This document shows, piece after piece, positions 2,670 through 42,462 of a DNA stretch of 60,158 nucleotides; the stretch's first letter is position 1, and each line of letters opens with the position of its first letter. The DNA is from a bacterium (GTDB lineage: Bacteria; Bacillota; Clostridia; Lachnospirales; Lachnospiraceae), in the NCBI GenBank assembly GCA_030535455.1, contig JAUNJY010000027.1, forward strand, positions 1-60,158. Reading direction: 5' to 3'. The notes under the pieces are model-generated. The model did not search any database, had not been told where the DNA came from, and saw only the letters and a program-made list of their open reading frames with translations. A program made the position numbers and the translations under genes.

Positions 2670-3839
2670 TTATAAACTCCTAGTATAATAATTTCTTATA
2701 GTTTGAGAAATATACCCCTTTAACTCCATGCCAATCAGTATGCTCATCAGCCGTGGAATCGATAATTTTGTCTGCATCGCAATGGTATCAATATGCTTTG
2801 GATCCAAGGATAAAATTGTATACACGATTTGTTCTTCCTTAGTCAGACACTCCTCTAACAACGGATTTTTCTTTACTCCTTCCATTAACATTCTTTCTTC
2901 GGTCAAATCTTCTTTTTCTTCATATCTTGTTCGATAAAAATCTAGAATTTCCTGTGGCGTCGTAACTATTTCCGCTCCCATCTTTATCAAGTTATTTGTG
3001 CCGCTTGATAAGTTGTCCGTTATCCTTCCCGGAATGGCAAATACATCCCGTCCTTGTTCCAATGCCTGGTCCACCGTAATCAGAGATCCACTCTTTAATT
3101 TTGCTTCTATTACTAAAAGACCATCACACATTCCACTGATCAGCCGATTCCTTCTAGGGAAATTTCCAGCCTTAGGTACGGTTCCAAGAGGATACTCACT
3201 CATTATCCCGCCATTCTTCTCCATCCTCATATACAGATCCATATTCTCTCTAGGGTAGCAATAATCCACTCCCGACCCTAACACTGCCAATGTATAACCC
3301 TTTGCACACAAGGCTCCCTCATGGCTATATCCGTCTATTCCTCGTGCCAGTCCACTGACAACCTGTACTCCTGCTTCCGCCAAATGGTAACCAAAATACT
3401 TAGCTACCTCTTTTCCATATTGCGAACAGCTTCTTGCACCAACAATGCCAATAGTAAGCACATTCTCTTTGGGAAGCTCTCCATTGATATAAATCCCATA
3501 TGGCGGATCATATAAAGTACGTAGCTTCTTTGGATACCTGTCATCTTCAATTGAAAGGAACTGATAGCCTCTTCTTGCAATCTCCTCATATTCCTTCTTA
3601 ATCCGAATGATATCCTTACTCTCAAGCAGATCTAATTTATTATTTTCACTAATTCCCTCAACCAAAGATAATTCTGAGGATGTTGCTTCAAATATCCGTT
3701 CTACTGTATTAAAATAGCACAACAGCTGGCTAATCTTCTTATGTCCAATGCCATGTATATTACATATCCAGTACCACAGCTCACTATTAGATAATGAAAG
3801 TTCTTTTTCTTCCAATACTACGCCTTCTACTTGCTCCAT
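2670..3839 (-). CDS. dprA: DNA processing protein DprA
   Basis: 389 aa from the chosen ATG at 3839. This start is preceded by GGGGGGAGAAGG and overlaps the last codons of comM, suggesting translational coupling in the intact operon. DprA binds incoming single-stranded DNA during natural transformation and loads RecA. The Rossmann-like core is seen in GIVGARSCSQYG, SGLARGIDGYSHEGAL and GSGVDYCYPREN, followed by RRNRLISG; the N-terminus has a helix-hairpin-helix-like region and the C-terminus a winged-helix-like tail. In this genome the prophage separates dprA from the comM promoter, so its expression in the lysogen is uncertain. Confidence 0.95.
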   Translation of the reverse strand: MEQVEGVVLEEKELSLSNSELWYWICNIHGIGHKKISQLLCYFNTVERIFEATSSELSLVEGISENNKLDLLESKDIIRIKKEYEEIARRGYQFLSIEDDRYPKKLRTLYDPPYGIYINGELPKENVLTIGIVGARSCSQYGKEVAKYFGYHLAEAGVQVVSGLARGIDGYSHEGALCAKGYTLAVLGSGVDYCYPRENMDLYMRMEKNGGIMSEYPLGTVPKAGNFPRRNRLISGMCDGLLVIEAKLKSGSLITVDQALEQGRDVFAIPGRITDNLSSGTNNLIKMGAEIVTTPQEILDFYRTRYEEKEDLTEERMLMEGVKKNPLLEECLTKEEQIVYTILSLDPKHIDTIAMQTKLSIPRLMSILIGMELKGYISQTIRNYYTRSL

Positions 3840-4329
3840 TCCTTCTCCCCCCAATACTTTTCGTCCACACTGCGATAGCAGACCGCTTCTGAGAGATGCA
3901 TCTTGTTAATTCGTTCTTCTCCCTCCAGATCCGCAATCGTCCTTGCCACCTTTAAAATTCGATGGTATGCCCTTGCACTCAGGTTCATCCTTTCAAACAT
4001 CAAGGCAAGAAACTTCTCTTCTTCTTCCTCCAAGACACAAAACTTTTTGATCATCCTTGGCGTGAGCTGGGCATTAAAGAAAATCTTCTCTGACTTGTAC
4101 CTGTCATACTGTATTTCTCTTGCCTGCCTAACCCTTTCCCATATCACCTTGCTGCTTTCTTCCTTACCTTTCTTCTGCAGTTCCTTGTGATTTACCTTAT
4201 TTGCCTCTGTGATAATGTCTACACGGTCTAAAAATGGCTTTGAAATCTTGCTTAGATACTTCTTCACCTGATGTTCCGTACAATTGCACAGATTGCGTTC
4301 TGGATAATATCCGCACGGACAAGGGTTCA
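3827..4329 (-). pseudogene. comM: comM (yifB), 3' fragment cut off by the prophage
   Basis: Encodes the last 165 residues of the Mg-chelatase-like AAA+ protein ComM, starting at NPCPCGYYPERNLCNC and containing the C-terminal lid (TIADLEGEERI region). It has no genuine start: the frame runs out of the prophage through a chance TTG at 4342. The 5' fragment is at 41123-42176. ComM is a hexameric branch-migration helicase used in transformation in Proteobacteria; the role in Clostridia is inferred. Reading 351 codons of the 5' part and then this part through the shared GGTTCA gives 516 codons with no stop, the normal length for the family. Confidence 0.93.
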
Positions 4330-4354
4330 ACCATACGTACAATTTAGGTAAAAA
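4324..4354. other. attL: core GGTTCA plus phage arm
   Basis: The core at 4324-4329 is followed on the phage side by TTTAGGTAAAA (4343-4353). This is the inverted complement of TTTTACCTAAA (41101-41111) at the other end. Placed together around one core they form an attP of about 50 bp with two inverted arms, as expected for a large serine integrase. Confidence 0.85.
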
Positions 4355-4722: not shown

Positions 4723-5097
4723 GTGAAAACATCAAAATTAGTTATCGGAATACTCAGTATTATAATGTTTGTGATAGTGAGTATGCAGTCTTGCGCTGTA
4801 GGTATTGGAAACGCTCTTTCCGAAAGTGAAGAAATTAGCGGATCAGCTGGTTTCTTATTAGCAATCTGTTTGCTTGTTGCTGGTATTATTGGTATTTGCG
4901 TTAAAAATAGTACAAAGAAAGGCCCTTATGTGGCAGGTGGATTTTATATATTTGGTGCAATAATAGCATATTGTAACATCGGAACATATTCAGACTTAGG
5001 AGTATGGGCATTTATATCATTTGCATTCGGTTTGGTATTTATAGTGCCTAATTTTATTCATAATAGAAAACAGAAACAAGTTAATAATAATGAATAA
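4723..5097 (+). CDS. Small membrane protein, possible lysogenic conversion gene
   Basis: 124 aa starting at GTG 4723 (AGGAGG seven bases upstream; the nearby ATG is followed at once by a stop). About four hydrophobic segments: residues 5-25 (with QSCAVG), 43-60, 70-88 and 94-112, then a short basic tail. Related small membrane proteins are common in Firmicutes without a known role. Plus-strand orientation beside attL suggests expression from the prophage state; superinfection exclusion is possible but is only an inference. Confidence 0.7.
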   Translation: MKTSKLVIGILSIIMFVIVSMQSCAVGIGNALSESEEISGSAGFLLAICLLVAGIIGICVKNSTKKGPYVAGGFYIFGAIIAYCNIGTYSDLGVWAFISFAFGLVFIVPNFIHNRKQKQVNNNE

Positions 5098-5110
5098 GTA
5101 GAATAATACT

Positions 5111-5153
5111 AAAATAATAGCCCAGGAGAATTAACTCCATGGGCTATTATTTT
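5111..5153. terminator. Bidirectional terminator between cargo genes and lysis operon
   Basis: AAAATAATAGCCCA pairs with TGGGCTATTATTTT, with an inner GGAG/CTCC helix. A T-rich run follows on the plus strand and the A-run gives the same on the minus strand. It lies between convergent genes (4723-5097 plus, endolysin minus) and would stop both. Confidence 0.85.
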
Positions 5154-5155
5154 TA

Positions 5156-6043
5156 TTATTTGTATAATGATAAGGCTTTCTTTACTGTTCCGGTTCCTAC
5201 GATACCATCTGCATCAAGGCCGTACTTTTTCTGGAATTCGATCGTTGCAGCCTTTGTTTTTGCACCAAAGTCACTATCAACGTTAAGTCCTGCATCCATT
5301 AACTCATTAAGGACTTTTTGCCACCATCCAACATATGCATTGTTGCTGCCAAGCTTGATGTTATGAGCTTTAACTTGTGCATAAGTCTTTGTTCCGGCAT
5401 CACCATCTACATCCAGCTTGCACTTGAATGCCATATTCAGATAGCTTTGTAATGCGCTTGCAACTTCTTTTCTGGTTCTAATACTTGGAGTATTATCGAC
5501 TTTAGCATCATCAATGTATACAATATAAAGCTGTTTAATTTCATTTTTCCATGTTGCCAAGTTTCCGACAAGTCTTTCTTCTTTGTTACTTGCTGGATCA
5601 CAAATATAAACATGTGTTTTGTCATATCCATAAACTGTTACAAAGTGTCCAGAGCTTGTCCATGTTCCTTTTCCCATGCAAGCGATTACATAATGACCAT
5701 CATCTAACGCTTTTAATGCCTTTGTAATAGCAGCATCATTAGGTTTGTTATAAATAGAATTTCCAGTCAATCGCTCTGATTTTACGCCGATGGATTTTAA
5801 GTACGCTACTGGACCACTGTAATATGTCCCGCTGTTTAAGCATTTGTATCCATTCTTAAGCATCCATGCTGCTGTTTCTTTTGGTGTGATACTCTTATCT
5901 ACTAAATATGCCAAATCAGCTGTAGCCGTCGGGCCGCAACCTGCTGTCTTAATAGTGCATGTTTCTCCTTTTACGGCGTAAGAAATACTTCCCCATCTAC
6001 TATCACCTTGTTTATAATCCATTGGTTTCTTTAATGTATTCAT
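5156..6043 (-). CDS. Phage endolysin: C39-like peptidase with peptidoglycan-binding domain
   Basis: 295 aa. Residues 1-180 resemble a papain-fold C39-like peptidase: catalytic Cys in AGCGPTATADLAY, His in SGHFVTVYGY, and an Asp in YICDPAS. Residues about 230-295 form a PG_binding_1 domain (NVDSDFGAKTKAATIEFQKK, GLDADGIVGTGTVKKAL), and a weaker half-repeat precedes it (LDVDGDAGTKTYAQVK). It would cut peptide bonds in the host wall at the end of the lytic cycle. No signal peptide, so it depends on a holin. Start ATG overlaps the holin stop as TAATG, pointing to coupled translation. Confidence 0.9.
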   Translation of the reverse strand: MNTLKKPMDYKQGDSRWGSISYAVKGETCTIKTAGCGPTATADLAYLVDKSITPKETAAWMLKNGYKCLNSGTYYSGPVAYLKSIGVKSERLTGNSIYNKPNDAAITKALKALDDGHYVIACMGKGTWTSSGHFVTVYGYDKTHVYICDPASNKEERLVGNLATWKNEIKQLYIVYIDDAKVDNTPSIRTRKEVASALQSYLNMAFKCKLDVDGDAGTKTYAQVKAHNIKLGSNNAYVGWWQKVLNELMDAGLNVDSDFGAKTKAATIEFQKKYGLDADGIVGTGTVKKALSLYK

Positions 6044-19692: not shown

Positions 19693-19765
19693 TTGCCCTA
19701 AAGGGAGTCGAACCCTTGACACATGGCTTATAAGGCCACCGCTCTAACCACTGAGCTATAGGACA
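19693..19765 (-). tRNA. tRNA-Ile, anticodon UAU (phage-encoded)
   Basis: 73 nt with a full cloverleaf: acceptor TGTCCTA/TAGGGCA (first pair U1-A72), D arm GCTC/GAGC, anticodon arm GTGGC-CTTATAA-GCCAT (anticodon TAT), 5-nt variable loop, T arm AAGGG-TTCGACT-CCCTT, discriminator A. CCA is not encoded. It decodes AUA directly; most bacteria use a CAU tRNA with lysidine for that codon. Carriage by an AT-rich phage, placed in the late region, suggests help with AUA codons during late expression. Confidence 0.9.
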
Positions 19766-37304: not shown

Positions 37305-38064
37305 ACTTTATACCTCCTAAGAATTTATTAATAAAATACTGTTGCCCTTTACCAGTAACCTTTGTAGTTTTATTGATACTTGTATGCCCATCAGAATGGC
37401 TAATTACGGTTTCTTTAATATCAAATAGCTTTAATTCCATAGCCTTTTGTGTAGGACTATTCCAATCTGCTCCTTGACGTTTGATTAAGTAACCATTATT
37501 TCTTAACCATTCGAACAATCTCTTTTGCCCTATCTCAACACCATTCTGTTTAAGCAGCTTTGCTAAATCTCCGACAAGGATTGATGTATGGCTTGTACTA
37601 ACTGCATCAGCAAATAATGCTTTCGGTTTCATTTCCTCAATCTGCTTTCCGAACTCTGCTAATTTCCTGTCTGCAAGTTTTAGAGCCCTTGCCATTACCT
37701 TATTAGGGTCATTCCAATCTTTTTCTAACTGGATGAAACGCTGTCTAATTTCTTTCCCTGTTTCGGTCCTAGACATCATACAAATGTGTTTAGACATATC
37801 CAATGTCATTTTATAATCTTGTAAATCCTGTGTAATTCCATTTTGATTAGGGGCGGACTTACAGGTACACCCCGAAAAATCTTCTCCTTCAATAAACCCA
37901 TCACTATTTGTTTTGAACCATTCACTAAATCTTTTCTTAATACCTAATCTTTCATGTAACCGTCTAGCTGAAATAAGAATTTGTTCCTCACTTTCAACCA
38001 CTAAAAATTTTGGATCACTATCTTCATTAAATCTTTTAATGCTCTTTGTTTGTAATTGTTCCAT
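37297..38064 (-). CDS. Phage antirepressor (AntA/AntB and KilAC-type)
   Basis: 255 aa. The N-terminal AntA domain reads ESEEQILISARRLHERLGIK, KRFSEWFKTNSDGFIEGEDF and MTLDMSKHICMMSRTETGKE. The C-terminal DNA-binding ANT domain reads LVGDLAKLLKQNGVEIGQKR, LFEWLRNNGYLIKRQGADWN, and GQQYFINKFLGG at the end. Such proteins inactivate or bypass the prophage repressor. Placed soon after cro in the early operon. Confidence 0.9.
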   Translation of the reverse strand: MEQLQTKSIKRFNEDSDPKFLVVESEEQILISARRLHERLGIKKRFSEWFKTNSDGFIEGEDFSGCTCKSAPNQNGITQDLQDYKMTLDMSKHICMMSRTETGKEIRQRFIQLEKDWNDPNKVMARALKLADRKLAEFGKQIEEMKPKALFADAVSTSHTSILVGDLAKLLKQNGVEIGQKRLFEWLRNNGYLIKRQGADWNSPTQKAMELKLFDIKETVISHSDGHTSINKTTKVTGKGQQYFINKFLGGIKYE

Positions 38065-38078
38065 ACTATTTCCTCCTT

Positions 38079-38210
38079 TTATTTTCTGTTTGCTTTAGAT
38101 ATTATTTTCGCCTGCATAATATACAGCTCTTTAGTTTCTTCATTCATTGGAACTATGTAGCCTTTCAAAGAGGTTCTTCTCTCTCCGTTTTTCATGACAT
38201 GAATAATCAT
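38079..38210 (-). CDS. Small phage protein (BOW99_gp33-like)
   Basis: 43 aa from ATG 38210 (AAGGAG seven bases upstream): MIIHVMKNGERRTSLKGYIV, then PMNEETKELYIMQAKIISKA, ending NRK. The family name is from memory and tentative. It is the first gene downstream of the operator at 38231-38247. Confidence 0.55.
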   Translation of the reverse strand: MIIHVMKNGERRTSLKGYIVPMNEETKELYIMQAKIISKANRK

Positions 38211-38230
38211 AGTCACACTCCTTTGTTTTT

Positions 38231-38247
38231 TTATCATGTTATGATAA
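38231..38247. promoter_or_regulatory. Repressor-type operator downstream of cro
   Basis: TTATCAT-GTT-ATGATAA, a perfect 7-bp palindrome with the same half-site as the operators in the repressor-cro intergenic region; a further half-site (TATGATAAAA) overlaps the cro stop codon. It could give the repressor a second control point on early transcription or a looping partner. Confidence 0.6.
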
Positions 38248-38249
38248 TT

Positions 38250-38450
38250 TTATGATAAAAAAATATCGATTTTCTCATCATTACTTAAATCCAATAAGTC
38301 TGATAATTTACTTATTTCATCATACCAAAATCTTTTTGATCCATTCATCTTATTGCTAAATGATGCTGTACTTATTTCAATTGCATCTGCACATTGCTGG
38401 TAAGTCAATTGTCGTTCGACAATCTTCCCCTTTAGTTTGTTAAAATTCAC
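38250..38450 (-). CDS. Cro-like repressor
   Basis: 66 aa from GTG 38450 (AAAGGAG seven bases upstream). Reads MNFNKLKGKIVERQLTYQQC, with HTH helices in ADAIEISTASFSNKMNGSKR and a C-terminal helix (ISKLSDLLDLSNDEKIDIF). DUF739/Cro type. Transcribed leftward from the promoter at 38504-38532, divergent from the CI-like repressor. The longer frame to 38522 runs through the promoter and is not used. Confidence 0.8.
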   Translation of the reverse strand: MNFNKLKGKIVERQLTYQQCADAIEISTASFSNKMNGSKRFWYDEISKLSDLLDLSNDEKIDIFLS

Positions 38451-38475
38451 AAAATTACTCCTTTCTCCAATGTTT

Positions 38476-38604
38476 TTATCATATTGTGATAACTTGTGAC
38501 TTAATATTATCACCGTGTGCAAATTATGTCAACAACTTTTTTAAACTTTTTTATAATGTCATGATAATAATATTGAATGTCATTATAAAAAGTGATAATA
38601 TCAC
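38476..38604. promoter_or_regulatory. Divergent promoters and operator array of the lysogeny switch
   Basis: Leftward promoter for cro: TTGACA (38532-38527), 17 bases, TAATAT (38509-38504). Rightward promoter for the repressor: TTGAAT (38573-38578), 17 bases, TAATAT (38596-38601). Operator-like sites: TTATCA..TGATAA (38476-38492), ATTATCAC (38506-38513, on the cro -10), TGTCATGATAA (38557-38567), GTGATAATATCAC (38592-38604, on the repressor -10). Half-site consensus GTGATAA. Repressor and Cro probably both bind here. Confidence 0.75.
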
Positions 38605-38637
38605 TATAAAAGTTAGATTTAGAAAGGTGATAAATAA

Positions 38638-39129
38638 ATGGACATTTTCGAAAGATATAAATTAATGAATAATAAAGAATATGGATCATCAGATAAAGAA
38701 TATGTAGACGAAGAAAAAACATACAAAGCAATACCTTTAAATGATAAAGAATTATGTGTTCCAGAATATACATCAGATTATAATAGAGATTTAGGTAATA
38801 GAATACGATATAATAGAAAGCTAAAAGGTTTGACAATAAAAGAACTTGCAGATAAAGTTGGACTACATTTCTCTACTGCGCAAAAATATGAAGCTGGAAA
38901 AATTAAGAATGTTGATATTTCATTGATACAGAAATTTGCGGATGCATTAGATATAGAAGATAGTGTTTTATTAGGTTGGAATGATGAAAACAAAGAAGCC
39001 AGCAAAACAATTGCTAGCTCCTTAGATATTAACACGATAGATTATAAGTTTATGAAAATATACTCCTCTCTAACTGATCAGCAAAAAGAAGCTTTATTCG
39101 TAATTGCTTCACAATTAAAGAAAGACTAA
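38638..39129 (+). CDS. CI-like prophage repressor without self-cleavage domain
   Basis: 163 aa, ATG 38638 after GAAAGGTG. An unusual 50-residue N-terminal extension precedes an Xre HTH (RIRYNRKLKGLTIKELADKV, GLHFSTAQKYEAGKIKNVDI). A short tail ends YSSLTDQQKEALFVIASQLK. There is no S24/LexA-like peptidase (no Ser-Lys dyad region), so RecA-stimulated self-cleavage is not expected. Control by a separate antirepressor is likely. Autoregulated through the operators overlapping its promoter. Confidence 0.8.
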   Translation: MDIFERYKLMNNKEYGSSDKEYVDEEKTYKAIPLNDKELCVPEYTSDYNRDLGNRIRYNRKLKGLTIKELADKVGLHFSTAQKYEAGKIKNVDISLIQKFADALDIEDSVLLGWNDENKEASKTIASSLDINTIDYKFMKIYSSLTDQQKEALFVIASQLKKD

Positions 39130-39245
39130 TCTTGTTTCGTTTTTAATAATTCAGAAACGATGGTGAGAAGTTGTGAAATCACTTCCTGGTTGTTTAGTTT
39201 ATCAATCATTTGATGCAAAATGCGTTTAGAGTCTTCTATGTTCAT
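39126..39245 (-). CDS. 39-residue LexA-controlled peptide, candidate micro-antirepressor
   Basis: Reads MNIEDSKRILHQMIDKLNNQ, then EVISQLLTIVSELLKTKQD. ATG 39245 has GGGGGAG four bases upstream, a good promoter (39285-39313) and a LexA box (39265-39278) at the start of transcription. It converges on the repressor gene and overlaps its stop codon. The second half (LNNQ..ISQLLTIVSELLK..D) looks like the repressor C-terminus (LTDQQKEALFVIASQLKKD), which suggests binding by mimicry. Analogous to the LexA-regulated small antirepressors of Gifsy/Fels phages and to Tum of phage 186, but without sequence similarity known to me. Confidence 0.65.
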   Translation of the reverse strand: MNIEDSKRILHQMIDKLNNQEVISQLLTIVSELLKTKQD

Positions 39246-39264
39246 ATCGCTCCCCCTTATGTAT

Positions 39265-39278
39265 CGAACGTGTGTTCT
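39265..39278. promoter_or_regulatory. LexA (SOS) box
   Basis: CGAACGTGTGTTCT on the plus strand matches the Gram-positive LexA consensus CGAACRNRYGTTYC at all but the last position, with the palindrome GAAC-GTGT-GTTC. It sits directly at and after the predicted start of the minus-strand promoter, where LexA would block transcription. Confidence 0.8.
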
Positions 39279-39284
39279 GTTTTT

Positions 39285-39313
39285 ATTCTAATATATAAGT
39301 GTTTTAGTGTCAA
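39285..39313 (-). promoter_or_regulatory. Promoter of the 39-residue peptide gene
   Basis: Minus strand: TTGACA (39313-39308), 17 bases, TAGAAT (39290-39285). Consensus -35 and near-consensus -10; start expected near 39278, inside the LexA box. Confidence 0.75.
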
Positions 39314-39332
39314 TATGAACAATTATAAATGA

Positions 39333-39351
39333 TGCTTGCTATAAAGAGCAA
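39333..39351. promoter_or_regulatory. Second copy of the Xre/integrase operator
   Basis: TGCTTG-N8-AGCAA, the same as at 39599-39617. It overlaps the 3' end of the Xre gene and lies about 20 bases upstream of the -35 box of the SOS peptide promoter. It could let the Xre protein influence that promoter. Confidence 0.5.
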
Positions 39352-39548
39352 ATGGTAAATAATTCATTTACGTCAACCTCTAATGCATCTGCAATAGGAA
39401 CCAATGTTATTAATGTTGGATGTTGCTTATTGTTTTCAATAGCAGAAATAAACCCATTACTAACTCCACTCTTTTCTGCGAGTTGTCTTAATGTCAACCC
39501 TTTTTCTAGTCTAATCTTTTTTATATTATAAACTACTGTTTTTTGCAT
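39339..39548 (-). CDS. Small Xre-family regulator next to the integrase
   Basis: 69 aa, ATG 39548 after AGGAGAATT. It is nearly all HTH: NIKKIRLEKGLTLRQLAEKS, GVSNGFISAIENNKQHPTLI, TLVPIADALEVDVNELF. Divergent from the integrase with 86 bases between. The same operator word lies on each side of the gene, suggesting autoregulation and control of integrase expression. Confidence 0.85.
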   Translation of the reverse strand: MQKTVVYNIKKIRLEKGLTLRQLAEKSGVSNGFISAIENNKQHPTLITLVPIADALEVDVNELFTICSL

Positions 39549-39597
39549 ATATAATTCTCCTTATCAGAAGAATTATAGCATGATTAAATTACTTATT

Positions 39598-39617
39598 TTG
39601 CTTGTTATAGCAAGCAA
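39598..39617. promoter_or_regulatory. Palindromic operator between Xre gene and integrase
   Basis: TTGCTTG-TTATAG-CAAGCAA, 7-bp arms. Lies 17 bases upstream of the integrase start and next to the Xre promoter (a TATAAT on the minus strand at 39577-39572). Likely binding site of the Xre protein. Confidence 0.65.
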
Positions 39618-39634
39618 TAAAGGAGGTACTTCAT

Positions 39635-41080
39635 TTGAATAATTTAGTTGGAATATATGTTAGAGTCTCATCACAAGAGCAAGCTATTGAGGGACATTCT
39701 ATAGAAGAACAACTGGATAGATTAAAAAGCTATTGTAACGCAAAGGGACTAACTATTTATAAAAATTATGTAGATCCAGGATTTACTGGTTCTAATATAA
39801 ATCGTCCAGCATTGGAAAACCTTATAGAAGATGTTGAAAACAAAAGAATTTCAACAGTTCTTGTATATAAGTTAGACCGTTTAAGCAGATCGCAGAAAGA
39901 TACACTGCATCTTATAGAAGATATATTTTTACAGAATAATTGTGACTTTATCAGTATGACTGAGAACTTTGATACATCCTCTCCATTTGGGAAAGCAATG
40001 ATAGGTATACTTTCCGTGTTTGCACAACTTGAACGTGAACAGATTAAAGAACGTATGGATATGGGGCGTGCAGGACGCGCTAAATTAGGTCTATGGCGTG
40101 GTGGTTCTAATGCTCCTATTGGTTATGACTTTGTGGATGGGAAACTTATTGTTAACGAATATGAGGCAATACAGGTGCGTAAGATATTCGAATTATTTCT
40201 AGAAGGAAAATCATTTGGCCAGATTTCAAAATATATGAAGTCACATTATACAAATAAATATAGTAATTACAACTGTAAAAACACTCTAGGAGCCATAATA
40301 AAGAACAATTTGTATATAGGTAAGATAAAATACAACGACGAGGTTTATGATGGCATACATGAGCCTATAATCACTTCTGAGACATATGCTAGGGCAAATG
40401 ATAGATATAAAATGATTTCTGATAAGTGGAACTCACAGGAACGAAGCCCATATGCTGGGAAACATCTATTAACTGGTCTTATATTCTGCGGCAACTGTGG
40501 CGCACGATATTTTACCACTACTACTAAAAGAAAAAATGCACCTGCTTATAGTTATTATAAATGCTATTCAAGAGACGGTAATAGAGAAATGAAAAAGATG
40601 GACGGTTGTAAGAACCCAACATATAGACAAGATTTGCTTGATCAAATGATTTTAGATGAAATATCAAATCTGCACTATAATAATGAATTAATCGAAGAAT
40701 TATCAATTTCATCGCAAAAAGAAAATAATTTAACAAAAGAATTAAATGCAGTTAAAAAGCAATTAGAAACAATTACAAATAAGATAAATAAATTACTTGA
40801 ATTATATTCAATCGGTGGTGTCCCAACCGATATGCTAAGTACACAAATAACTACTCTTGCTACTGAAAAAGAAAAACTGGAACTTCATATTCATGAATTA
40901 AAAAATAAGAGTATAAAAGACAGCATGCTTACAGTTAATGAAGCAAAAGAATATATTAATTCTTTCTATTCTACCATTGAGGTTTCTTCTTTGGAAGAAA
41001 AGAAGCATGTCGTAAATATTTTGATTAATAAAATTATTATAATGCCTAACAAAGATATAGAGATACATTGGAACTTTTAA
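39635..41080 (+). CDS. int: Large serine recombinase (phage integrase)
   Basis: 481 aa from a TTG with AGGAGG eight bases upstream. Resolvase domain with catalytic Ser12 in GIYVRVSSQEQ, and LVYKLDRLSRSQKDTLHLIE, SVFAQLEREQIKERM. A recombinase domain (RGGSNAPIGYDFVDGKLIVN, GAIIKNNLYIGKIKYNDEVY) follows, then a zinc ribbon (FCGNCGARYFT ... CYSRD ... GCKNP) and a leucine-rich coiled coil near residues 350-430. It integrates the phage at comM by recombining attP and attB around GGTTCA. It is 20 bases from attR. A partner directionality factor was not identified. Confidence 0.95.
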   Translation: MNNLVGIYVRVSSQEQAIEGHSIEEQLDRLKSYCNAKGLTIYKNYVDPGFTGSNINRPALENLIEDVENKRISTVLVYKLDRLSRSQKDTLHLIEDIFLQNNCDFISMTENFDTSSPFGKAMIGILSVFAQLEREQIKERMDMGRAGRAKLGLWRGGSNAPIGYDFVDGKLIVNEYEAIQVRKIFELFLEGKSFGQISKYMKSHYTNKYSNYNCKNTLGAIIKNNLYIGKIKYNDEVYDGIHEPIITSETYARANDRYKMISDKWNSQERSPYAGKHLLTGLIFCGNCGARYFTTTTKRKNAPAYSYYKCYSRDGNREMKKMDGCKNPTYRQDLLDQMILDEISNLHYNNELIEELSISSQKENNLTKELNAVKKQLETITNKINKLLELYSIGGVPTDMLSTQITTLATEKEKLELHIHELKNKSIKDSMLTVNEAKEYINSFYSTIEVSSLEEKKHVVNILINKIIIMPNKDIEIHWNF

Positions 41081-41100: not shown

Positions 41101-41128
41101 TTTTACCTAAACTGATTATATAGGTTCA
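41101..41128. other. attR: phage arm plus core GGTTCA
   Basis: Phage arm TTTTACCTAAA at 41101-41111, core at 41123-41128, then comM sequence. The arm is the inverted complement of the one at attL. The centre of symmetry between the two arms falls at T|C of GGTTCA, so TC may be the crossover dinucleotide. Confidence 0.85.
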
Positions 41129-42176
41129 TTGCACCAACCAGCATAAAGTTGGTTGGATAAGTATAGCTTCCGTGTATTCTGGCAATGGTCACCGTACGGT
41201 CCTCCAACGGCTGTCGTAATAGTTCTAGCGTACCTTTTCGAAACTCCGGAAGCTCATCTAAGAATAAGACTCCCCCTGTGGCCAGGCTGATCTCTCCAGG
41301 CTTTACAGTCTTTCCCCCACCAACCAACGCAGCGTCCGTAATCGTATGGTGCGGAGCACGAAATGGCCTGCGTCCTATTAATGACTGATTTTCATCTAAA
41401 AGTCCGCTAATACTGTAGATTTTGGATATCTCAATACTCTCCTCAAAACTTAAGGATGGCATTATTGTAGGGATGCGTTTTGCCAGCATTGTCTTTCCCG
41501 CCCCCGGTGGGCCAATCAACAAAATATTATGTAATCCACTTACCGCAATTTCAATTGCACGCTTTGCCATGCTCTGTCCCACGACCTCGCTAAAATCATA
41601 CTCTTCCTTCTCTTCTGACTCCTTAAATATAGATGCCATATCTGCATAACTAGGCTCAATCCACTTGCGGCTGGTCAGATAGTCTACGACGTCAGAAATA
41701 TGGCTAACACCAATTACTTCTACACCGTCAATTGCTGCTCCTTCTAATGCATTAACATTTGGTACGATACATCTGGTAATTCCATTTTTCCTAGCACTAT
41801 ATACTATAGGAAGTACTCCGTTCACCTTCATAACGCTTCCGTCCAGACTTAGCTCACCAATGATCAGGGTTTTATTAAGAGAAGTATCTGATACGATACC
41901 AAGAGCTGCTAAAATAGAAATGGCAATAGGGAGGTCAAATGCTGTCCCCTCCTTACGAACATCCGCCGGTGATAGATTTACCGTGATACGCTTAGGAACC
42001 ATATGATAACCTGCGTTCTTCATTGCTATCCGAACCCGTTCCTTCGCTTCTTTCACTTCACCTGCCAGATATCCTACCATTGAAAAGATTGGAAGCCCAT
42101 CAGAAACATCTGCTTCCACACTAATTACCGCACCTTCAATTCCAAGTACTGTTCCACTATATACCTTACTAAACAT
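41123..42176 (-). pseudogene. comM: comM (yifB), 5' fragment cut off by the prophage
   Basis: 351 comM codons from ATG 42176 ([20 protein letters not shown]), preceded by AAAGGAAG; the frame then runs 6 phage-coded residues (LYNQFR) and stops at 41103. Contains the N-terminal ChlI/Lon-like domain ([20 protein letters not shown]), AAA+ Walker [16 protein letters not shown], Walker [13 protein letters not shown] and the start of the arginine-finger region ([17 protein letters not shown]). Lacks the rest of the ATPase, so a product would be inactive. Excision of the prophage restores the full 516-aa gene. Confidence 0.95.
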
Positions 42177-42462
42177 AACTTCCTTTCCTAGTTCTTTCAT
42201 ATGCCAAGTTCAGTATAGCAAACACTAAAAACATGCGTAACCAGTTTGTAATCAATTCCAGATTAATTGTAAAATAATATGTTCACACGACTTTTGCTCA
42301 TTGTTCGTGTAAAAACAAAGTATCTTCGACACTCATGGCTTCCCTTCCCTCAATCCCCCAAGAGAAGACACTTTGTCTGCGGCGAACTCGGTCGCACTAG
42401 CAACATCTTCCTCTCGAGTGAGTGCGCATCTTGGCTTTCTGTTTTTTAGAAATCCTTTTTTC

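Follow-up and report, generated by a model that had tools for sequence, protein, structure and literature searches.

How does a prophage whose repressor cannot cut itself learn that the DNA of its host is damaged? The SOS response must reach such repressors by some other route, and in gut Clostridia the damage-sensing route of non-self-cleaving repressors is, to our knowledge, mostly unknown. The question is raised by a 60,158-nt stretch of a Lachnospiraceae genome (GCA_030535455.1, contig JAUNJY010000027.1, which is contig C32 of the 4.35-Mb draft; this whole stretch is called the window below), which carries a prophage of ~37 kb with a CI-like repressor. A 39-codon gene converges on the repressor gene, the 3′ ends of the two overlapping by 4 nt, and offers a concrete and easily missed candidate. 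We propose that its peptide is probably an SOS-induced micro-antirepressor, which would break the dimers of the repressor as SinI does those of SinR.

The peptide gene, its promoter and the LexA sites of the host

An earlier reading of this DNA from its letters (the sequence-only reading) had described here a micro-open reading frame (micro-ORF) convergent with the repressor gene, with a consensus promoter, a start lying in a LexA box and a strong ribosome site, and our analysis confirms the whole arrangement. The promoter, TTGACA-17-TAGAAT, agrees with the consensus at 11 of 12 positions and is the top one among 20 promoter-like sites in 38000–41000, where 18.2 were expected. The motif GAACN4GTTC, which is the Bacillus form of the LexA box (PMC4234289; this paper and the others cited by PMC number are drawn on in part), has a single exact copy in the whole 60 kb, and that copy lies at this promoter. 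Counts of LexA-like motifs were rejected as stand-alone evidence, since those in the window lie at chance level; genome-wide, the motif with one mismatch is found 46 + 44 times, below the 128 + 147 of the reversed-pattern control.

We credit the box because boxes of the same form precede SOS genes of the host and because relatives keep the arrangement. The 11 zero-mismatch sites of the genome include those before recA (L001), lexA (L003, with a second box adjoining), recN (L006, in the GTTT form) and a Y-family polymerase gene (L010), all four named by reading the protein starts, as well as one inside an ORF of the prophage tail region (11503), which has no evident meaning. LexA control of the peptide gene, as first suggested, would fit well with a box in the host's own form, that of recA, lexA and recN of the same genome.

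Domain searches with the repressor give helix-turn-helix (HTH) matches and nothing else of note, in agreement with the earlier remark that it has no S24 peptidase domain. In profile searches of the draft genome (93.6% complete, 7.7% contamination) Peptidase_S24 has its single match at the lexA locus and the ImmA-type M78 domain its single match on contig C8; the contig of the prophage matches neither, and the M78 gene is not adjacent to the repressor, unlike in ImmR/ImmA.

Convergent micro-ORFs in a scan blind to the peptide

Viral contigs were scanned for promoters that carry a LexA box and are followed by a ribosome site, leaving the peptide unused; all counts from these scans are among the matches listed. 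From 120 sites, 52 lead to ORFs of 16–74 amino acids (aa), and 18 of these 52 end against a convergent HTH gene, the partner having 103–171 aa in all 18 cases. Further scans added two convergent cases among 121 sites and one among 49 sites (in one scan 53 of 55 stretches were newly analysed, the other two being in the set already). The convergent micro-ORFs found by the scans have 32–58 aa. Over 299 loci, 19 of 46 LexA-box ORFs of 25–60 aa converge with an HTH ORF of 80–175 aa, against none of 218 micro-ORFs without a box (p 1e-16) and none of 69 longer LexA-box ORFs (p 2e-9); this comparison takes HTH ORFs of that size range only, omits ORFs of 61–79 aa or with no stop within 600 nt, counts related copies (L100/L309, L276/L277) apart and, like the scans, uses an HTH model built partly from the repressors of this family, that of L100 included. 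At E 0.01 all 17 repressors searched, 14 of them from the scans, have an HTH_3 match and no Peptidase_S24 match. Polymerase and ImmA-like genes also lie behind LexA-box promoters in the scan, as true LexA targets would.

Several observations from the scans stand apart. In L350, L351 and L363 ImmA-like ORFs (M78-type, by reading) follow directly behind LexA-box promoters and would make another SOS route to a repressor. Among the other 34 small ORFs, 17 form by reading a LexA-driven class of 64–74 aa that shares a core resembling 'IYL...G..SQR' and does not converge with a repressor (L065, L112, L142, L187, L207, L210, L216, L217, L237, L241, L284, L289, L290, L291, L294, L297 and L299), which resembles YolD-type SOS genes; another scan shows more members of it. 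The peptide gene overlaps the repressor end by 73–82 nt in L100, L309 and L310, which have similar promoters; the repressors of L100 and L309 differ in their DNA-binding domains, pointing to a swap of that part.

Relatives found through the repressor

A tblastn search with the repressor of one relative, L268, gave 31 phage records, and 15 of the 21 examined carry a convergent micro-ORF (L367, L368, L370, L371, L372, L375, L376, L377, L378, L381, L382, L383, L384, L385 and L386), with Butyrivibrio fibrisolvens, Blautia coccoides, Terrisporobacter and Clostridioides among the hosts or phages. The choice of these ORFs was made by eye and in several of them included that of an inner start codon, the start in L385 being TTG; ranking by a hidden Markov model (HMM) served as the check: a model built only from 21 promoter-scan peptides places the picked ORF first in 14 of the 15 loci, each with 14–40 small ORFs, and third in L370. 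A box within one mismatch of the eight core bases lies upstream in 9 of the 15 and is exact in 4, the chance from shuffles of nine upstream regions being ~3% with one mismatch and 0.1% for an exact box. The micro-ORF is unannotated in Butyrivibrio phage Idris (L367), Clostridioides phage phiCD08011 (L370) and Terrisporobacter phage TPDSL_ph2 (L371), and is annotated as a hypothetical protein in Blautia phage Montmirail. In L374 a 36-aa ORF at the top of the HMM ranking (2630–2740) is displaced behind two inserted ORFs (1874–2586) that are hicA/hicB-like by reading.

Relatives of the window's own repressor are scarce, with 1, 3, 0 and 2 loci in contig scans and, at different limits, 3 of 299 and 2 of 4 genomes. 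The L038 repressor as query reached 17 places in 16 of 397 genomes, and a search based on the Cro-like protein gave 3 of 397 genomes, 10 phage records and one contig locus. In L037 a 38-aa ORF overlaps the repressor end; its promoter, TTGATA-17-TATAAT, carries the box AGAACATTCGTTCT in the spacer. Of two further loci, L387 has a micro-ORF but no box and L388 has no micro-ORF. Five relatives from the host family (L035, L047, L049, L057 and L059) have an ImmA-like ORF (by reading) behind the repressor, which is not the case in the window. L038 has a second micro-ORF near the same switch (5027–5167, 46 aa), which is the top HMM match of its locus at 18.0 bits and matches the RapH N-terminal model weakly (E 0.00029, below the curated cut-off).

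Searched by its own sequence, the window peptide matched one of 250 genomes of the family, namely the source genome itself; a phage search with three peptides gave no match, and the window peptide has no Pfam, PHROG or NCBIfam family. When 25 peptides were compared with Pfam at E 0.01 there was no match of any kind, the SinI model included, at the low sensitivity that goes with short peptides; we take that model to be PF08671 and assume its presence in the library searched. The peptide as a curated SinI member was rejected on this result. One PHROG match among the 25 peptides is unexplained.

Membership of the window peptide and conservation of the protein

Does the 39-codon frame belong to this class, and is it the protein that is conserved? 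An HMM from the 21 scan peptides ranks 39126–39245 first of 489 small ORFs in the window (7.8 bits), and one from 34 peptides with the window excluded, the training having left out six peptides in all, ranks it first of 383 ORFs (10.7 bits, E 0.01; the next has 8.1), which is a modest margin. Conservation of the frame is borne out by these window-free models and by the recurrence of the gene beside many short HTH repressors, and what the sequence-only reading had taken for a single case turned out to be a class spread over clostridial phages.

Codon changes favour a conserved protein. The L037/L038 peptide genes differ by 0.59 changes per synonymous site and 0.21 per other site; in L100/L309 the 17 codons that lie clear of the overlap have six synonymous changes and none that alters an amino acid (10 and 12, respectively, over all 44 codons); L263/L268 show 0.74 synonymous and 0.30 other changes, and L280/L240 0.66 and 0.52, near saturation. 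The Idris and Arawn peptide genes have too few differences to judge.

These changes bear on a different explanation, that the transcript acts and not the peptide: a LexA-controlled antisense RNA running into the repressor gene and toward the lytic operon would lower repressor synthesis or bypass the repressor. The promoter does point into that gene, the single terminator-like site on this strand in 3 kb lies inside it (1 against 0.8 expected), and in nine loci the two genes overlap by 73–89 nt. We nevertheless consider an antisense role unlikely, as the codon changes favour a conserved protein, 2–51 nt separate the two genes in many loci, and the profile match and covariation described below are those of a protein.

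LexA-driven small proteins such as TisB and YneA are known in bacteria, and the peptides described here are of similar size, as would be expected of an SOS-induced small toxin or division inhibitor standing beside the repressor by chance. A hydrophobic stretch of 19 residues (Kyte-Doolittle mean >1.6) is present in none of 34 peptides, the window peptide having 0.48, which makes a TisB-like membrane peptide unlikely and speaks against membrane peptides, not against a soluble division inhibitor. Convergence with a repressor and covariation with its C-terminus would be superfluous for a toxin, and we hold this explanation to be very improbable.

Likeness of the peptides to the repressor C-terminus

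The micro-antirepressor proposal predicts a resemblance between the peptide and the pairing part of the repressor. Across the family, likeness to the C-terminal 50 residues has a mean z of 0.93 over 34 pairs, with 7 of the 34 exceeding 2; for the upstream part the mean is 0.20 and no pair exceeds 2 (paired p 0.039). In 28 of 34 pairs the C-terminus of the repressor gets a higher score from the peptide HMM than the remainder does (p 0.00025), and the peptide profile aligns with the C-terminal profile over 33 columns with a score of 19.25 (E 0.0005); among the controls, 30 column shuffles reach 6.8 at best and upstream regions 6.9–9.6.

Peptide and C-terminus also vary together. In partial Mantel tests over the 34 pairs the peptide follows the C-terminus when the HTH part is held constant (r 0.49, p 0.0002), and does not follow the HTH part when the C-terminus is held constant (r -0.03, p 0.70); these pair statistics ignore kinship beyond the non-redundant sets. 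A direct example of this covariation is L100/L309, where the peptides are 75% identical, the repressor C-termini 60% and the DNA-binding parts 32%; the pattern is not seen in L037/L038 (63%, 46% and 73% in the same order).

AlphaFold2 predicts for the repressor a C-terminal hairpin of helices 132–144 and 147–162, with a block-mean predicted local distance difference test (pLDDT) of 69 for residues 131–140 and 87–96 from 141 on, and for the peptide a hairpin of helices 3–16 and 20–38 (mean pLDDT 86). Foldseek with the repressor model finds five PDB chains with an E of at most 0.001. One of them is SinR in its complex with SinI (1B0N), aligned over 112 columns; the other four are aligned over 63–69.

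Could the peptide be aimed at another regulator, either the HTH protein of 69 aa encoded upstream of it or LexA? An HTH-like gene of 65–84 aa (by reading) stands ahead of the peptide gene in 8 of the 27 loci examined (the window, L034, L153, L280, L219, L276, L248 and L228), one of the paired 20-nt repeats in the window lies near the peptide promoter, and gp7 of GIL01 binds LexA (PMC4551915). On the other side, 19 of the 27 loci have no such HTH gene in the same orientation among the two nearest upstream ORFs, some loci being truncated; the convergent repressor is the constant neighbour, and both likeness and covariation point to its C-terminus. We therefore regard another target as quite improbable.

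Proposed mechanism and its weighing

The box, the promoter, the gene arrangement, its conservation, the profile likeness at family level and the covariation can all be read in the DNA, and from them we infer how the micro-antirepressor may act. In an undamaged cell LexA would occupy the start site and keep the peptide gene silent, the non-cleavable repressor holding the lytic operators. On DNA damage RecA would remove LexA and the peptide would be made. It is predicted to fold as a two-helix hairpin like the C-terminal hairpin of the repressor and would pair with that hairpin, and the pairing would break the repressor dimer or a higher form. The repressor would then leave palindromes such as TTATCATATTGTGATAA (38476) and TTATCATGTTATGATAA (38231), and the leftward lytic genes would start.

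A number of results weigh against this reading. Of the points in the sequence-only reading that lend themselves to a sequence test, most are upheld and one is not. For the window pair alone the likeness is not above chance (z -0.24 against shuffles) and was rejected as stand-alone evidence, so that the resemblance to the repressor C-terminus, the chief argument of the sequence-only reading, stands for the family, shifted by one residue from the register first given, and falls for the window pair. The hhalign probability of the match between the peptide and C-terminal profiles is just 32%. Pairing of peptides with their own as against other repressors is weak (p 0.039 for 24 pairs, p 0.096 for 20 non-redundant ones), and the covariation could partly be linkage, because the 3′ end of the repressor gene adjoins the peptide gene. 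In the structural comparison 1B0N is alone among the 50 matches listed in reaching residue 163, with a root-mean-square deviation of 9.9; the two-domain layout is therefore alike and the placement of the domains is not, and the alignment was rejected as showing the same domain arrangement (deviation of about 10).

The distribution of the gene adds to these points. Among the first nine relatives of the window repressor (L032, L034, L035, L037, L038, L041, L043, L044 and L039, the last by annotation only; L036 and L042 lie outside the set) three have a convergent micro-ORF (L034, L037 and L038), and in L038 (38 aa) and L034 (68 aa) the ORF stands in the same place without a box. In 8 of the 17 places reached with the L038 repressor, all in the host family and displayed with ORFs of at least 34 aa, no convergent micro-ORF was seen. 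Four of the 21 records found with L268 have no convergent member (L373, L374, L379 and L380), and L369 and L389 have instead a lysine-rich ORF of 46 aa, ranked 13th and 14th by the HMM and uncounted. The scan of 49 sites, in which the box follows the -10 element as it does in the window, gave its single convergent case. No box lies upstream of L367, L368, L381, L383, L384 and L385, in addition to L034 and L038, and LexA control is not universal across the family.

Possible, and somewhat short of probable, is a wider proposal: that these peptides represent a widespread and largely unannotated class of phage micro-antirepressors, derived from the repressor's own pairing hairpin and now encoded by a separate convergent gene of 32–58 aa under the host LexA, and that they are a main damage-sensing way of clostridial gut phages with non-cleavable repressors, each specific to a C-terminal module and not to the DNA-binding domain. 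If the mechanism is true, one could tell from sequence whether a prophage is inducible, and peptides of 32–39 aa would be simple tools for studying how repressors pair.

Relation to known systems

A structural parallel is offered by SinR/SinI of Bacillus subtilis (1B0N), where a small hairpin-like protein forms a mixed complex with an HTH repressor that has a C-terminal hairpin; here the hairpin likeness is seen at the level of the family. SinI belongs to the control of biofilms and is not under LexA, whereas the window peptide would be driven from a LexA box; none of the 25 peptides compared matches Pfam at E 0.01.

In regulation a close parallel would be with the Gifsy prophages of Salmonella, whose LexA-controlled antirepressors GfoA, GfhA and GftA serve uncleaved repressors (PMC3121763): in both cases a small protein under direct LexA control would inactivate an uncleaved phage repressor and tie induction to SOS. 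The Gifsy antirepressor gene lies outside the immunity region (PMC3121763), whereas the window gene touches the repressor gene and converges on it. The clostridial ORFs are mostly of 32–58 aa and as a family resemble the repressor C-terminus; no such likeness is stated for Gifsy in the parts of that paper drawn on (PMC3121763). A repressor without a self-cleavage domain goes with the class of LexA-controlled antirepressors (GfoA, Tum), and that is the kind of repressor found here. Tum of coliphage 186 and the N15 antirepressor are likewise SOS-regulated and act on a phage repressor (PMC12637031, PMC10432266), but they belong to phages of E. coli and are likened here by function only.

Qtip and the smORF antirepressors of linear plasmid-phages are small phage proteins that inactivate cI without proteolysis; they differ in being driven by phage transcription factors, independently of SOS, and in acting on self-cleaving repressors (PMC10432266, PMC11323111). 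That work states that non-proteolytic repressors are outside its consideration (PMC10432266 / PMC11323111) and acknowledges SOS-activated antirepressors or peptidases for uncleaved ones (PMC10432266). ImmR/ImmA of the ICEBs1 type offers another route without S24 to inactivate an HTH repressor, by a metalloprotease (PMC12637031), and none is found beside the window repressor. A keyword search of open-licence papers, seen in part, yielded no description that we recognised of micro-antirepressors convergent with clostridial phage repressors. LexA-controlled antirepressors and, in Bacillus, mimicry of the SinI type are already known.

The prophage and its immunity region

The prophage is inserted into a gene, presumably comM/yifB, whose parts lie at 3827–4342 and 41103–42200. 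At its right end are, among other ORFs, genes for an AntA/KilAC antirepressor, the Cro-like DUF739 protein, the repressor (on the other strand), the 39-codon gene, the 69-aa HTH gene and a serine integrase (Table 1). The 69-aa HTH gene is flanked by an inverted pair of 20-nt repeats, one copy near the peptide promoter and the other before the HTH and integrase genes, and its product is a possible second regulator or controller.

Table 1. Positions in the window of the peptide gene, the repressor gene and their surroundings.
Feature	Position	Strand	Basis or remark
Putative operator of the repressor, palindrome TTATCATGTTATGATAA, early lytic region	38231..38247	.	repeat search
Cro-like DUF739 gene, first in the lytic direction	38250..38450	-	domain match
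Putative operator of the repressor, palindrome TTATCATATTGTGATAA, between repressor and Cro-like gene	38476..38492	.	repeat search
CI-like prophage repressor, 163 aa	38638..39129	+	HTH_3 match only, no S24
Codons of the repressor C-terminal helical hairpin (residues 132–162), proposed target of the peptide	39031..39123	+	AlphaFold2 model, profile match
39-aa peptide gene, proposed micro-antirepressor, ATG start	39126..39245	-	predicted helix 3–16, turn, helix 20–38
Ribosome binding site AAGGGGGAG, strong	39250..39258	-	direct reading
LexA box CGAACGTGTGTTCT over the expected transcription start	39265..39278	.	motif search; box begins about at the expected start
-10 element TAGAAT	39285..39290	-	promoter prediction
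-35 element TTGACA, 17-nt spacer	39308..39313	-	promoter prediction
20-nt repeat by the peptide promoter, inverted copy of 39597–39616 (90%)	39333..39352	.	putative operator of the 69-aa HTH protein
Xre/Cro-type HTH gene, 69 aa, upstream of the peptide gene	39339..39548	-	domain match

By direct reading GGTTCA is present at both prophage junctions (4324–4329 and 41123–41128), where it is a candidate for the crossover core of the serine integrase. A tRNA gene lies within the prophage at 19693–19765, on the minus strand.
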